Below, piece by piece: positions 31,070 through 37,188 of a stretch of DNA of 48,862 nucleotides (the stretch's first letter is position 1; each line of letters starts with the position of its first letter). The notes below the pieces were generated by a model, which worked only from the letters and a program-made list of their open reading frames with translations, ran no database searches and was not told where the DNA came from. The position numbers were made by a program, and so were the translations under genes. The stretch lies in contig MEDT01000046.1 of assembly GCA_001724175.1 (NCBI GenBank), forward strand, positions 10,738 to 59,599. The letters run 5' to 3'. This stretch comes from Cytophagaceae bacterium SCN 52-12 (GTDB taxonomy: Bacteria; Bacteroidota; Bacteroidia; Cytophagales; Spirosomataceae).

Positions 31070-31789
31070 ATGAAACGTATACTCTTAGTGGAAGATGACC
31101 GGCGGATTGCCCAGAATATATCCAAAGGGCTTAAAGAGGAAGGGCTGGGAGTAGAAGTGGCTTTCGACGGCATTACCGGAAAGCAGCTGGCGCTGGAAAA
31201 GAATTTTGACCTCGTGCTGCTCGACCTTAACCTGCCCGGGATCAAGGGGTATGACATATGCAGGCAGATCAGGTATTACAAGCCGTTGCTGCCGGTTATC
31301 ATGCTGACCGCATACGGCGAAATAGAAGACAAGGTCGAAGGGCTGGCCCTCGGCGCTGACGATTATATCGTTAAGCCGTTCGATTTTCGTGAACTGATCG
31401 CCAGGGTTTCGGCCGCGCTCAGGCGGAGCGATGTGGCCTCGGGCACCGGAAAGAACGAAGTTCTGCTGGCTGGGGATTTGTGCCTGAACGCGGTGACCAA
31501 GCAGGTCAGGCGAGGCGACAGGGATATCGAGCTCACCGCCAGGGAGTTTGCGCTGCTCGAGTATTTTATGCGGCATCCCGGGCAGGTAATTTCAAAGATG
31601 GATCTTGCCGAAAATGTATGGCACCTGAATTTCGACCCGGGCACCAATGTAGTGGAAGTGTACATCAATTACCTGCGCAGGAAAGTGGATAAGGATTTCG
31701 ACCGTAAAATAATCCATACCCGTCCGGGGTTGGGTTATATGCTGCAGGCCGATGAGCATGCCGGGCTCCCTAAAGAAGACATGCCTTGA
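31070..31789 (+). CDS. OmpR/PhoB-family response regulator
   Basis: A 239-residue regulator that starts MKRILLVEDDRR. Receiver residues Asp9/Asp10, phosphoacceptor Asp52 in LLDLNLPGIKG, Thr80 and Lys102 (KPF) are intact. The C-terminal winged helix has LTAREFALLEYFMRHPG and VEVYINYLRRKVDK. The kinase gene overlaps its last four bases (TTGA), so the two are translationally coupled. Similar to the heavy-metal/CusR-like or RprY-like subclass; the signal is unknown. Confidence 0.94.
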   Translation: MKRILLVEDDRRIAQNISKGLKEEGLGVEVAFDGITGKQLALEKNFDLVLLDLNLPGIKGYDICRQIRYYKPLLPVIMLTAYGEIEDKVEGLALGADDYIVKPFDFRELIARVSAALRRSDVASGTGKNEVLLAGDLCLNAVTKQVRRGDRDIELTAREFALLEYFMRHPGQVISKMDLAENVWHLNFDPGTNVVEVYINYLRRKVDKDFDRKIIHTRPGLGYMLQADEHAGLPKEDMP

Positions 31790-33153
31790 AGATCAGAAAC
31801 CGTATCGCGCTTCAGTTTACCGTGATCGTAGCGTCGATCCTGGTCACATTTTCCGTGCTGGTATACAGTGTCTCGGCAAATTTCAGGGAAGAAGAGTTTA
31901 ACGACCGGCTGTATAATAAAGCCATTACGACCTGCCGGTTTCTGGTAATGGTAAAAGAGGTGGATGTCGACCTGCTGCATATTATTGACAAGAATACGCT
32001 TACCACGCTGATCGATGAAAATGTCCTTGTATTCAACCGGGAAAACAGGCTGATCTATACAGGCGGCGACAGCATTTTCCTGCAGTATGACCACGACCTG
32101 CTGGAAATGATCAGGCGAGAAGGAGAGATAGAAATGTACCAGGGAGAGAACCAGCTGGTGGGCTTCCTGTATGAAGAAGGAGACGAGCCGCTGGTGGTGC
32201 TTGCCTCAGCAAATGATAAATTTGGGAATGCGAAGCTGCATAACCTCCGTCAGACCTTGTGGTGGAGCCTGTCGATAGGGATCGGGCTTACCGTTTTGCT
32301 GAGCATACATTTTGCCGGTAATTCGCTCAGGCCGATCTCGGAAATAAATGACCAGATCTCTTCGATAACGGCTAAAAACCTCAAGCAGCGTCTGCCGGAA
32401 GCAAATTCTTATGACGAAATAGGCCAGCTTGCCTCCAACTTCAACGACGTGCTTTCCAAGCTGGAGCAGGCATTTGAAAAGCAAAGGAGTTTTGTCTACC
32501 ACGCCTCGCACGAATTGCGGACGCCCCTGGCCGCGCTGAAGTCCGAAATACAGCTGGCTGAAAAACGGATGGCCGACCATGCAGAGGCGGGCGAAGTTTT
32601 CAGCAACCTTTCGAGCGATACGGAAAGGCTGATCAGCATTACGAACAGCCTCCTGCTGTTTGCCAGGTCGCTGGAAGACCTCGGACAGGTTCAGATGGAA
32701 CGGGTGCGAATAGAGGATGTGCTGTTCAGCGCGAAGAAGGAGCTGCAGTTTGCGAACGCCGGAAGCATCGTTCATATAGACTATGCCAACCTGCCGGAAG
32801 ATGAAAATCATACGCTGGTGGAGGGCAACGAGGAATTGTTGAAAAGGGTATGCCTGAACCTGATGGATAATGCATGTAAATATTCGGAGTGCCGGACGGT
32901 AACAGTGACTATCAGGACAGATAAATCTTACTGCTACCTGCTCTTCGAGGATGAGGGTATCGGGATTTCGGAGGACGACCTGCCTCATGTTTTCGATGTA
33001 TTTTACCGGGGAGGAAATGCGATAGGGCACGACGGCTTCGGAATCGGGTTATCTATTTGCCAGCGGATAGTGGAAATACACGGCGGAAAGATACTGGTCT
33101 TGAGCAAGCTGAATCAGGGCAGCCGGTTTTCGGTACAGCTCAGGCATATCTGA
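31786..33153 (+). CDS. sensor histidine kinase with HAMP domain
   Basis: A 455-residue inner-membrane kinase. Transmembrane helices at about residues 9-30 and 158-177 enclose a periplasmic sensor. A HAMP domain (NSLRPISEINDQISSI, PEANSYDEIGQLASNFNDV) leads to HisKA FVYHASHELRTPLAALKS with His242 and an ATPase domain (NLMDNACKYS, EDEGIGISEDDLPHVFDVFYRG, DGFGIGLSICQRIV). The start is a TTG at 31786 overlapping the regulator's stop; it is needed to include the basic N-terminus and first helix, since no ATG lies between. It pairs with the regulator at 31070. Confidence 0.93.
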   Translation: MKIRNRIALQFTVIVASILVTFSVLVYSVSANFREEEFNDRLYNKAITTCRFLVMVKEVDVDLLHIIDKNTLTTLIDENVLVFNRENRLIYTGGDSIFLQYDHDLLEMIRREGEIEMYQGENQLVGFLYEEGDEPLVVLASANDKFGNAKLHNLRQTLWWSLSIGIGLTVLLSIHFAGNSLRPISEINDQISSITAKNLKQRLPEANSYDEIGQLASNFNDVLSKLEQAFEKQRSFVYHASHELRTPLAALKSEIQLAEKRMADHAEAGEVFSNLSSDTERLISITNSLLLFARSLEDLGQVQMERVRIEDVLFSAKKELQFANAGSIVHIDYANLPEDENHTLVEGNEELLKRVCLNLMDNACKYSECRTVTVTIRTDKSYCYLLFEDEGIGISEDDLPHVFDVFYRGGNAIGHDGFGIGLSICQRIVEIHGGKILVLSKLNQGSRFSVQLRHI

Positions 33154-33172
33154 TGTTTGCTGTCAGGGACGC

Positions 33173-33203
33173 AGCTGTTCGGGACTGCAAGTCCCGAACA
33201 GCT
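33173..33203. repeat. perfect 14-bp inverted repeat
   Basis: AGCTGTTCGGGACT (33173-33186), loop GCA, then the exact complement (33190-33203). It lies 20 nt after the kinase stop and has no T run. It could be a dispersed palindrome of the genome. Between it and 33333 I see only degenerate GC-rich hairpin fragments. Confidence 0.65.
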
Positions 33204-33333
33204 ATTATGTCGTCTTTGGCGGCGTTACGATACCCGCTGCGAACGTAATAACGGGGCAGCGAAGCCTGCCGTTTCGCCGGGCAGGGAAATTCAAAATCTT
33301 CCCGTTTTATTCTAATCTATTTCTAATGGAGAG

Positions 33334-33368
33334 TTTGCCTGCCGGACTTTATTATTTCAATATATTTG
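33334..33368 (+). promoter_or_regulatory. Bacteroidota-type promoter in the 33.3-kb intergenic region
   Basis: TTTG at 33334-33337, a 23-nt spacer, and TATATTTG at 33361-33368 match the -33/-7 pattern (spacing at the upper end). No coding gene follows on the plus strand; the predicted start near 33375 leads into a hairpin and then a terminator about 100 nt on. Confidence 0.5.
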
Positions 33369-33374
33369 ATCACT

Positions 33375-33476
33375 GTGCGCTGCTCCGTAACGGGGCGGCG
33401 CGGTCACTAATAAAGTGGTTGAAAAAGTCGTGTTATTAACGTAGAAAGCCGGTGTCTTTTAGATACCGGCTTTTTT
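33375..33476 (+). ncRNA. candidate small RNA with its own promoter and terminator
   Basis: A predicted transcript of about 102 nt. It opens with an 11-bp GC-rich hairpin (33377-33387 with 33391-33401, two G:U pairs, loop TAA), has an A/T-rich single-stranded middle, and ends with a strong terminator (33445-33476). No ORF of useful length is inside. A 13-nt segment (33388-33400) is nearly repeated at 33249-33261. I do not recognise an Rfam family. Confidence 0.4.
33445..33476 (+). terminator. strong Rho-independent terminator
   Basis: AAAGCCGGTGTCT (33445-33457) pairs with AGATACCGGCTTT (33461-33473), one G:U pair, 3-nt loop, followed by T to 33476. It is about 290 nt past the kinase stop, which suits a separate short transcript better than the kinase operon. 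Confidence 0.8.
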
Positions 33477-33482
33477 GATACA

Positions 33483-33517
33483 AAAAAGGCGACTTCCGAG
33501 AGGATGGTCGCCTTTTT
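33483..33517 (-). terminator. terminator of the minus-strand secreted-protein gene
   Basis: AAAAAGGCGAC (33483-33493) and GTCGCCTTTTT (33507-33517) form an 11-bp stem. Read on the minus strand it begins 31 nt after the stop of the 33548-33922 gene and ends in a T run. It could work in both directions. Confidence 0.75.
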
Positions 33518-33547
33518 CACATTGGTTAACTCTAATTAAATGCGGTG

Positions 33548-33922
33548 TCAGAACTTAATTCCCAGGATATTGACGAGTTGTTCAGGACTGTAGCTTGTAC
33601 CGGGAGCAGCCTGCTCTGCCGGGCTTAAAGATGCAGACCGGGAAGGAACGACATTTCCGCGACGTTCAGGCCATACACCCATAATCCTGTTGAGCTGATC
33701 AGGCGTGTACTTGTCGAAAAGACCCGCAGCTTTTTGTACGGGTAACTCCGGTACTTCCTCCAGGACGACAGACGGCATAAAACTGTTAGCTGCGTGCCCT
33801 TTGATTTTATCCTCGTTTAGAGCTATCTTATTAGAATAGTTATTTTTTGCTTCTACATGAGCAGAGGAGAAAAGCAAAGCAACCATTGCAGCACCGGCTA
33901 AAAATGATCTTGTATTTTTCAT
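33548..33922 (-). CDS. small secreted protein with duplicated Y-[TS]-P-[DE]-Q-L motif
   Basis: A 124-residue protein with a signal peptide (MKNTRSFLAGAAMVALLFSSAHVEA). The mature part has two copies of a short motif, YTPDQLNRIMGV (residues 72-83) and YSPEQLVNILGI (111-122), separated by a Pro/Ser/Arg-rich linker. The second copy ends two residues before the C-terminus. I do not recognise a family. The gene has its own promoter (33971-34003) and terminator. The motif copies look like short helical docking segments, an inference only. Confidence 0.7.
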   Translation of the reverse strand: MKNTRSFLAGAAMVALLFSSAHVEAKNNYSNKIALNEDKIKGHAANSFMPSVVLEEVPELPVQKAAGLFDKYTPDQLNRIMGVWPERRGNVVPSRSASLSPAEQAAPGTSYSPEQLVNILGIKF

Positions 33923-33970: not shown

Positions 33971-34003
33971 CAAAATTAACAAATAATTCTGAATATTGGC
34001 AAA
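33971..34003 (-). promoter_or_regulatory. Bacteroidota-type promoter for the secreted-protein gene
   Basis: On the minus strand TTTG (34003-34000), a 21-nt spacer and TAATTTTG (33978-33971) match the consensus well. The start would be near 33964, giving a leader of about 42 nt before the ATG at 33922. The rest of the gap up to 34277 is AT-rich with a GC-rich patch (34200-34275); I see no gene there. Confidence 0.7.
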
Positions 34004-35109: not shown

Positions 35110-37188
35110 ATGCAGTCGGGCCTCATATTCACGACATCACCATGGCTCACGCTTTTATGTGTGATTACAGGGATGTTGTATGCCTGGGGCCTTTATGCTC
35201 CCGTTCCGTCGTGGAGCCGGCAGGTCAACTGGTCGCTCGCCGCCATACGGGCGCTGCTGGTTGCCGTTATTTGCTTCCTGCTTCTTGCCCCGCGCATCAG
35301 GCACGTCGAAACTTCGGTCGACAAGGCCCGGGTCGTCATAGCGGTCGACAACTCCATGTCGATGGCTGCCGCTGCCGATTCCGGTGTTTTAAAACAAATA
35401 ACCCGTTTTGAAGAAGAATTGACAGACGCGGGCTATGAAGTGGCGGGCAAAACCCTGTCCGGGAGCAACAGCCTGGATTCGCTGAAGTTTGATGAGGGCA
35501 CTACCGATCTGGCTGGATTTCTAAACTCGGTAAGAGGTGATTTCGAAGGCAGGAACCTGACAGACGTCGTTCTTCTCTCAGATGGCATCTATAACCAGGG
35601 CGCTTCGCCTGCTTTCGGCGTATACCCTTTCAGGATCCATTCCCTTGCAGTTGGAGATACGATTCCGGCCAGAGATATCAGGATCACCCCGGTGAGGGCC
35701 AACCAGGTGGCTTTCCTGGGCAACAGGTTCCCCGTTCAGGCAGATATAACGGCGCACGGCATGGGCGGCCGCCGGGCTACGCTCTCGCTCAGGCAGGGCG
35801 ACCGTGTCCTGGCATCCCGGCAGCTCAATATTTCGGGCGATAATCATTTCGAGACTGTAGAGTTTCTGGTCTCTTCCTCTGAAAAGGGAATGCAGCGGTT
35901 TACGCTCGAGCTGAATGTCTTACCGGGAGAGCGGACCCAGGCCAACAATAAACGCGAGGTTTATGTAGATATCATCGACGGCAGAGAAAATATTCTCCTG
36001 CTGGCGCTCTCTCCCCATCCCGATCTGAAGGCTATCCGCAGCATGATCAGCACTAACGAAAACTATGATTTCGATATGCACATAATGAGCACGGGACCCA
36101 TACCCGCGGAGCTGCTGAAAAAAAAATACGACCTGCTGATCCTTCACCAGATTCCGGATTTGTACAATATGGGAAACAACCAGGCGGTAAGTCCGCTGCT
36201 GTCGGGAGATATCCCGGTTTGGTATATCTACGGAAGCCAGTCGGCCAGCGAGGCTTTTAACCGGGTAAACCGGAACGTAACCATTATGACGGAAGGCGTT
36301 CAGTTTGACCAGGTAACAGGCCAGCTGAACAAGGCTTTCAGCACCGTATTGCTCGATCCCGATAAGCTGAGCCTGCTGGAAAAGCTTCCGCCGGTTTCTG
36401 TTCCGTTCGGAGAATACACGCTTGCTGCGGGAACCGAGGTCGTGCTTTATCAGCGTATAGGCAACCTTGAAACCCGGAAGCCGCTTCTTACGGTGAGGCT
36501 GAGCGGAGAGTCGAAAAAAACGGCGACATTCCTCGGAGACGGTCTCTGGCTCTGGCGCCAGGAAGAGTTTGCCCGGACCGGCAAAACCGAGGTGATCGAC
36601 GAAATGATGCTCAAGCTGATCCAGCTGATGTCGGTGAAGGAAGACAAAAGGAAATTCAGGGTAACGCCTGTTGAGCGCGAATTCAGTACCAGGGAGCCCG
36701 TCATTCTGCAGACAGAGGTCTATAATGATGTATATGAGAAAATTTACGGCCAGGAAATTACCCTGAAGGTGACGGATGAGAAAAACCGGTCCCAGACCTA
36801 TACATATGTCAATACGGAGGGACAGCCTCAATATCAGTTAAGCGGCCTGGCGGAAGGCGCCTACAGGTTTACTGCTTCTGCCAGGATCAAAGATAAGATC
36901 GAAGAGGTGGAAGGGCGTTTCCTCGTACGGGATGTCAATCTCGAATACCTCAATATGACGGCCGACCATGGAATGCTGAGAGAGCTGTCTGCAAAAACCG
37001 GCGGAGAGTTTCTTTATCCCGGAGGGTTAGACGAGCTGCAGGAACGGCTGGCGACCTTAAAATCGCCCGACCGGTTGAACAGCAGAGAGGAAGTAGTACA
37101 GATAATCCACCTTAAATGGTTATTTTTTTTACTGGTCGCGTTGACAGCGTTGGAATGGGCTACCCGGAAATATCTCGGAAGTTACTGA
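35110..37188 (+). CDS. vWA-domain membrane protein (BatA/BatB-like)
   Basis: A 692-residue inner-membrane protein. Two N-terminal helices (about residues 9-29 and 42-60) precede a vWA-like domain with the metal-site motif DNSMSM (Asp80, Ser82, Ser84) and VVLLSDGIYNQG. Long beta-sandwich and Rossmann-like regions follow (ENILLLALSPHPDLKAIRSM), and a final helix (KWLFFLLVALTALEW) anchors the C-terminus. This architecture resembles large vWA proteins near aerotolerance Bat genes in Bacteroidota. Its function is not known. It lies between fabG and the DUF2279 gene, which overlaps its last 34 nt. Confidence 0.85.
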   Translation: MQSGLIFTTSPWLTLLCVITGMLYAWGLYAPVPSWSRQVNWSLAAIRALLVAVICFLLLAPRIRHVETSVDKARVVIAVDNSMSMAAAADSGVLKQITRFEEELTDAGYEVAGKTLSGSNSLDSLKFDEGTTDLAGFLNSVRGDFEGRNLTDVVLLSDGIYNQGASPAFGVYPFRIHSLAVGDTIPARDIRITPVRANQVAFLGNRFPVQADITAHGMGGRRATLSLRQGDRVLASRQLNISGDNHFETVEFLVSSSEKGMQRFTLELNVLPGERTQANNKREVYVDIIDGRENILLLALSPHPDLKAIRSMISTNENYDFDMHIMSTGPIPAELLKKKYDLLILHQIPDLYNMGNNQAVSPLLSGDIPVWYIYGSQSASEAFNRVNRNVTIMTEGVQFDQVTGQLNKAFSTVLLDPDKLSLLEKLPPVSVPFGEYTLAAGTEVVLYQRIGNLETRKPLLTVRLSGESKKTATFLGDGLWLWRQEEFARTGKTEVIDEMMLKLIQLMSVKEDKRKFRVTPVEREFSTREPVILQTEVYNDVYEKIYGQEITLKVTDEKNRSQTYTYVNTEGQPQYQLSGLAEGAYRFTASARIKDKIEEVEGRFLVRDVNLEYLNMTADHGMLRELSAKTGGEFLYPGGLDELQERLATLKSPDRLNSREEVVQIIHLKWLFFLLVALTALEWATRKYLGSY

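Follow-up and report, generated by a model that had tools for sequence, protein, structure and literature searches.

A candidate small RNA gene with a predicted two-component box in the slot of an efflux operon in a Spirosomaceae genome

A stretch of 48,862 nucleotides (the window) from the draft genome of Cytophagaceae bacterium SCN 52-12 (G000; 5.12 Mb, 274 contigs, 79% complete, and probably metagenome-derived judging from its 274 contigs) carries at 33373-33476 of the forward strand what we read as a free-standing small RNA (sRNA) gene of ~100 nt under the control of the adjacent two-component system. From the sequence features described below, we assign this reading a probability of about 0.6. 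The original prediction was of a small RNA gene in its own right and not of a terminator for the upstream kinase gene, and the proposal gains support from a predicted regulator box and a promoter of its own upstream of the RNA, and from a different hairpin that lies just past the kinase stop (33174-33202, + strand; terminator-like, with a 13-bp stem found by script and a weak T tail). The main new evidence, beyond what was seen at that time, is the combination of the predicted box with a displaced efflux operon.

The predicted +1 of the RNA, 33373, is obtained by placing the -7 box at -12 to -5, as given in the accessible part of PMC9723704, and the end is set by the T run at 33475/33476, resulting in a length of about 103 nt. 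A 12-bp 5' hairpin (33376-33387/33391-33402) begins at +4, in agreement with the hairpin formerly placed at the transcript start, which had been put 2 nt away at 33375. It is followed by a small hairpin from the fold prediction (33404-33408/33414-33418), by the mostly unpaired stretch TGGTTGAAAAAG (33416-33427), which is like the motif GTTGGAAA that box-controlled RNAs of relatives carry, and by an intrinsic terminator with a 15-bp stem (33443-33457/33461-33475, all on the + strand), in which A-U pairs with the T run are counted and the 13-bp stem reported earlier is contained. The segment 33373-33477 folds at -46.7 kcal/mol with a z of -6.6 against shuffles, the terminator being the main contributor. 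With the terminator left out (33373-33443) the z is -2.65, and 2 of 500 shuffles are equally low; the first hairpin region reaches -3.56 (1 of 500), and the middle part folded alone shows no excess over shuffles (z -0.15). A generic promoter and terminator scan returned no terminator at the RNA and one 9-of-12 sigma-70 match, its rules suiting neither the RNA stem nor the promoters of this phylum. We also note that the near-repeat of a segment of the 5' hairpin, pointed out before, is present as AACGGGGCGGCG at 33389 and AACGGGGCAGCG at 33250; the latter lies between kinase and box, in a part of the gap (33245-33300) that also has a second GC-rich hairpin-like stretch, GCCTGCCGTTTCGCCGGGCAGG.

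ATG is absent from 33373-33477 and the longest GTG/TTG frame beginning ahead of the terminator has 11 codons, consistent with the earlier statement that the RNA contains no ORF. Translation of a very short gene, either the 11-codon leaderless GTG frame at 33375 or some other tiny frame, could be proposed since such frames exist in the RNA and the same box precedes a 59-64-aa ORF in four other genomes (G002, G059, G110 and G089). However, the GTG frame lies wholly inside the 5' hairpin and the window does not encode the 59-64-aa protein; together with the missing ATG, this makes a coding gene extremely improbable.

The -33/-7 promoter is recovered by motif search as TTTG at 33334-33337 and TATATTTG at 33361-33368 (+ strand), separated by a spacer of 23. 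The pattern TTTG N17-24 TANNTTTG has three matches in the window, compared with a mean of 1.07 and a maximum of 4 in 30 window shuffles, so that the motif by itself counts for little. All three matches are intergenic and each is upstream of something plausible, the other two being 5' of the ORF at 33548-33922 (spacer 21) and 5' of fabG (spacer 19). When the region 33154-33547 was shuffled, the pattern appeared on the + strand in 28 of 2000 cases. A separate promoter for the RNA is supported beyond the motif by the predicted upstream box, which has the sequence, the order and, to within 1 nt, the spacing seen in promoters downstream of related kinases. The expectation of about one chance match per window would also suit a reading without any gene, in which the hairpin and terminator come from kinase read-through or from the 3' end of the convergent gene at 33548-33922, and the terminator could indeed serve upstream transcripts as well. 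Nevertheless, the kinase stop already has its own hairpin, an inverted repeat with a T run follows the convergent gene (33482-33517, - strand; its probable terminator as read from the sequence, separate from that of the RNA), and no second place in G000 combines the box with a correctly spaced -7 element. We consider the absence of a gene improbable.

The two genes upstream encode the putative controlling pair. The OmpR-type response regulator (31070-31789, + strand; Pfam Response_reg and Trans_reg_C) is of the heavy-metal type by its best NCBIfam match, TIGR01387, which it matches with 229.5 bits, under the cut-off of 279.2, and its recognition helix, TNVVEVYINYLRRKVD, is the same as in relatives. 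The sensor histidine kinase (31786-33153, + strand; Pfam HAMP, HisKA and HATPase_c) matches TIGR01386 best with 194.3 bits, under the cut-off of 292.55, and is 62-63% identical to the kinase of Telluribacter. By kinase similarity the relatives are Telluribacter, Rhabdobacter, Larkinella and other Spirosomaceae, the genus of the window organism being undescribed. The predicted response-regulator site is the direct repeat TTCTAA-N5-TTCTAA (TTCTAATCTATTTCTAA) at 33310-33326 (+ strand), the only exact copy in the 5.12 Mb of G000, where the reversed control pattern is likewise matched exactly once. If one mismatch is tolerated, 21 of 100 window shuffles contain the box; what carries the argument is therefore an exact match at the expected position, and not just its rarity. 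The box start (33310) is 51 nt from the -7 box, and the two elements at correct spacing are found at only one place in G000.

Downstream of the Telluribacter kinase come tolC, the gene of a periplasmic adaptor and that of an RND pump of the CusA/CzcA family, which passes TIGR00914. The kinase-tolC gap of this type contains a run of TTCTAA half-sites at 11-nt spacing, a -7-like element and the tolC start. Half-sites at 11-nt spacing are the usual layout of OmpR-type regulator sites. The regions downstream of the kinase were taken from 89 Spirosomaceae loci, a subset of the kinase matches, and 87 of them could be read (L231 and L256 were dropped because the kinase end was not found): tolC is present in 66 regions, 63 of them with the box, the box occurs without tolC in six, and 15 have neither. 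Two half-sites matching at least 11 of 12 positions are present in 63 of the 66 kinase-tolC intervals and matching 12 of 12 in 48, compared with means of 0.35 and 0 in shuffles of the same intervals, and the 12/12 box is kept in six of the 21 regions without tolC (shuffle mean 0). In tolC promoters with a recognisable -7 element, the distance to the box is 50 nt or departs from this by multiples of 11 (e.g. L184, L185, L187, L200 and L205); many others (e.g. L190, L204 and L208) have no good -7 match, which makes the spacing argument weaker there. The box-to--7 spacing of 51 in the window compares with 50 in four regions of relatives from which tolC is displaced, and the third and fourth half-sites of the tolC promoters are absent from the window box. 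Because the RNA stands where relatives have the efflux operon, the neighbouring response regulator probably drives the RNA promoter through the predicted box.

A close homologue of the tolC of this slot was not found in G000, where the best match, on contig C56, is 31% identical to the Telluribacter TolC and sits in another, distant set of regulator, kinase, tolC, adaptor and RND genes. As a result, the efflux operon of the window pair is either missing from G000 or located in the fifth of the genome that is not assembled. The C56 kinase is ~27% identical to the window kinase and the C56 RND protein 54% identical to that of Telluribacter; in this second set (L223, 4790-9295), TTTAAG repeats at 11-nt spacing precede tolC. 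In the kinase tree the end branch of the window kinase measures 0.73, compared with a median of 0.074 for end branches, which suggests faster evolution after displacement of the operon. The window kinase stands apart from the RNA-linked kinases of G002, G059, G060, G191 and G197, requiring at least two label changes, so that the window RNA may have arisen, or taken its place, separately. The outgroup, the C56 kinase, is too distant and the window branch is long, and an independent origin of the RNA linkage is accordingly put only as likely.

The chief rival to an sRNA gene is a leftover leader, in which the efflux operon was lost, the regulated promoter was kept, and a short functionless transcript now runs to the terminator. 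The presence of tolC at the slot in most relatives and its absence from the window, where the closest TolC of the genome belongs to another set, would fit such a history, as would the long kinase branch, which relaxed selection would also give, and an RNA body without homologue. On the other hand, the 5' hairpin is stronger than 499 of 500 shuffles, the regulator and the kinase are both intact, and box RNAs elsewhere are conserved between species. Taken together, these points make a leftover leader unlikely, though the most serious of the alternatives, and the control of a free-standing sRNA gene by the pair is preferred.

The conservation is seen in G060, G191 and G197 (L273, L278 and L279), which have the box without tolC and a common RNA of ~131 nt, with its start 12 nt downstream of the first base of the GACCTTTG box and a terminator at its end. 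This terminated RNA is at the same place as the window RNA and the next gene, CsbD-like, is convergent as in the window, which further favours an RNA apart from the kinase terminator. The identity of the RNA exceeds that of the outer flanks in each pair of these genomes: 90% vs 64 and 85%, 71% vs 55 and 56%, and, for G191/G197, 77% vs 63 and 57%. In G016 (L238) the box without tolC leads into a terminated stretch of ~136 nt followed by an nhaD-like gene, and such stretches of ~131-136 nt are found in four of the six regions of this kind. The remaining two, in G002 and G059 (L232 and L241), have a 59-aa ORF after the box, and in both genomes a second kinase copy (L315 and L316) is followed by an 89-nt box RNA. 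The 15 tabulated box RNAs are terminated and 89-134 nt long, with 50-51 nt from box start to -7 in 14 cases and 41 in one; among those of relatives, five are beside a kinase and the others elsewhere. The window RNA, with about 103 nt, its 15-bp terminator stem and a spacing of 51 nt, falls within this description.

A search of 222 genomes for the box with a -7 element at 51-52 nt gave 20 places, compared with three for the reversed control. Eight of the 20 lead to box RNAs (window included), six to tolC-like genes (L332, L333, L336, L339, L347 and L349), two to a 60-64-aa ORF, and four to other or no genes. The ORF of 59-64 aa (M[SN]WLEYS...; L348, L351, L232 and L241), of which the L351 copy lies directly 3' of a CusA-like gene, would be a box-controlled small protein by its predicted box. 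We also observe box RNAs directly upstream of, and on the same strand as, antiporter-like genes in four genomes (L340, L341, L345 and L238). Judged by their N-terminal sequences, the genes that follow these RNA terminators look like Na+/H+ antiporter genes, nhaA-like in G002 and G059 and nhaD-like in G110 and G016. This arrangement is what an attenuator would look like, in which the terminated RNA is the 5' leader of a downstream gene and is read through under some condition. In the window, by contrast, the RNA is followed by a convergent gene (33548-33922, - strand) with a terminator of its own, no same-strand gene lies between the RNA and fabG, and fabG has its own promoter; the next gene is likewise convergent in G060, G191 and G197. 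An attenuator is thus very improbable in the window.

The sequence of the RNA is not conserved in other genera by BLASTN and a model of the window RNA alone (R1). BLASTN with 33330-33482 in 59 genomes found no homologue (54 matches at E <= 1, all short, the best 0.0012), and 33290-33540 gave no match in plasmids. No Rfam family reached its gathering cut-off in the window; EF3314_EF3315 (RF02634; 33.6 bits vs gathering 100) and rli42 (RF01474; 25.4 bits vs gathering 80) were rejected together with 11 other low-threshold matches, all far under the cut-off and resting on the hairpin and terminator. In the loci of 17 relatives Rfam returned only a tRNA, and no family covers the box RNAs. The matches of R1 in 38 of 99 genomes (E <= 0.1) were also rejected as homologues; they are mostly gene ends followed by a terminator, and none of the 19 other loci read has a correctly placed -7 box. 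With fabG and the ORF at 35110-37188 as anchors, the two genes stay linked in relatives, in which the stretch upstream contains no RNA like that of the window, L159 giving 20 bits from a terminator.

A model of the three kinase-linked RNAs of G060, G191 and G197 (R2) has strong matches only in these genomes; weak ones elsewhere had the box upstream and share a 3' half composed of AGTTGGAAA, a small hairpin and an AATAGCC terminator. R2 gives the window RNA 22 bits and recognises nothing beyond the terminator, and R1 does not recognise the three RNAs. A third model (R3) was built from the 3' half of nine RNAs, that is GTTGGAAA, a small hairpin and the AATAGCC...TGTC terminator, with the box not included; six of the nine were chosen knowing box and motif, and hence only non-training matches count as independent. 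R3 has 33 matches in 25 of 222 genomes, three of the 33 without a locus. At E < 1e-11 the box is within 220 nt upstream in 12 of 12, including all three non-training matches (G200, the second of G206, and G065), and among the 18 weaker matches with loci it is found in six, the other 12 being mostly plain terminators. Within the window the RNA is the top match of R3 at 24.0 bits (E 8e-4 over the window; the next match has 7.8), a score that arises from GGTTGAAAAAG against GTTGGAAA and from the AGCC...TGTC terminator arm; in G000 as a whole there is no match at E 0.001. Because lone terminators elsewhere reach 33-38 bits, the resemblance is a hint only. As for the GTTGGAAA motif, 17 of 2000 RNA-body shuffles and 6 of 1338 tiles attain the PWM score of the window RNA. 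The window RNA body may thus weakly resemble the 3' half of the box RNAs, of which it is a possible member. Covariation in the 3'-half alignment (A3, terminator only) is weak, with one pair changed on both sides, and conserved structure is claimed only for the terminator and the layout.

In the proposed mechanism, a metal or envelope signal would be sensed by the kinase, the response regulator would bind the TTCTAA repeat, and the sigma-A-type promoter would be switched on, leading to transcription from 33373 to the terminator at 33475. The first three steps, from the signal to the regulator on its repeat, follow from the families involved. The same promoter slot would serve the tolC-adaptor-CusA/CzcA operon in most relatives and the RNA in the window lineage. 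The RNA ends would be protected by the 5' hairpin at one side and the terminator at the other, and once the signal is sensed the mostly unpaired stretch at ~33416-33428 might base-pair with target mRNAs, the pairing being a guess from the anatomy of the RNA. The promoter, box, spacing, hairpins, terminator, conserved box-promoter layout and similar RNAs in relatives are read from the sequence; from these we infer transcription, binding by the regulator, the metal signal, trans base-pairing and the existence of any target. More tentatively, and at somewhat less than even odds, the Spirosomaceae may possess a hitherto undescribed family of fast-evolving sRNAs, forming the RNA arm of a heavy-metal two-component regulon, in which the box drives either a CusA-type pump operon or an RNA of ~90-134 nt with a GUUGGAAA pairing stretch, the window RNA being a divergent member in the slot of the pump. 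If true, one regulator box switches between pump operon and RNA across genera, which would provide a natural series for an sRNA gene taking over the promoter of a protein operon and a set of RNA genes that lend themselves to testing in culturable relatives.

Two-component-controlled sRNAs of enterobacteria include MicF and OmrA/B under OmpR and MgrR under PhoP. The window RNA is similar to these as a short terminated RNA with an OmpR-type regulator site, here predicted, at its promoter. It differs in phylum and promoter type, in its efflux-operon slot beside its own sensor, and in that no Hfq was found in G000 (79% complete). The CusRS/CzcRS systems with CusCBA/CzcCBA are the best NCBIfam matches of the window regulator and kinase, both under the curated cut-offs, and the Telluribacter pump passes the corresponding model; in contrast to these systems, the operon is absent at the slot. 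To our knowledge, few Bacteroidota sRNAs have a known regulator. The intergenic sRNAs of Bacteroides thetaiotaomicron such as GibS, for which a sigma-ABfr-type promoter and an intrinsic terminator were among the criteria for 49 high-confidence candidates in the accessible part of PMC7366714, are alike by description in promoter type, intergenic position and terminator; the same part of that source states no link to a sensor system, and the start in the window is predicted rather than mapped. Rfp18 of Flavobacterium psychrophilum, linked to proteases and conserved in its genus, is by description likewise a structured Bacteroidota sRNA with TAnnTTTG-type promoters, for which the accessible part of PMC9723704 states no relation to an efflux regulator. 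In the accessible parts of the open-access literature searched, neither Spirosoma sRNAs nor any Bacteroidota sRNA driven by a metal two-component system is described.

The convergent ORF downstream of the RNA (33548-33922, - strand) encodes 124 aa and, by ORF and family searches, belongs to no family; it had no match in any other genome among the 200 of the family searched. Its start is signal-peptide-like, and a TTTG-N21-TAATTTTG promoter of its own lies at 33971-34003.
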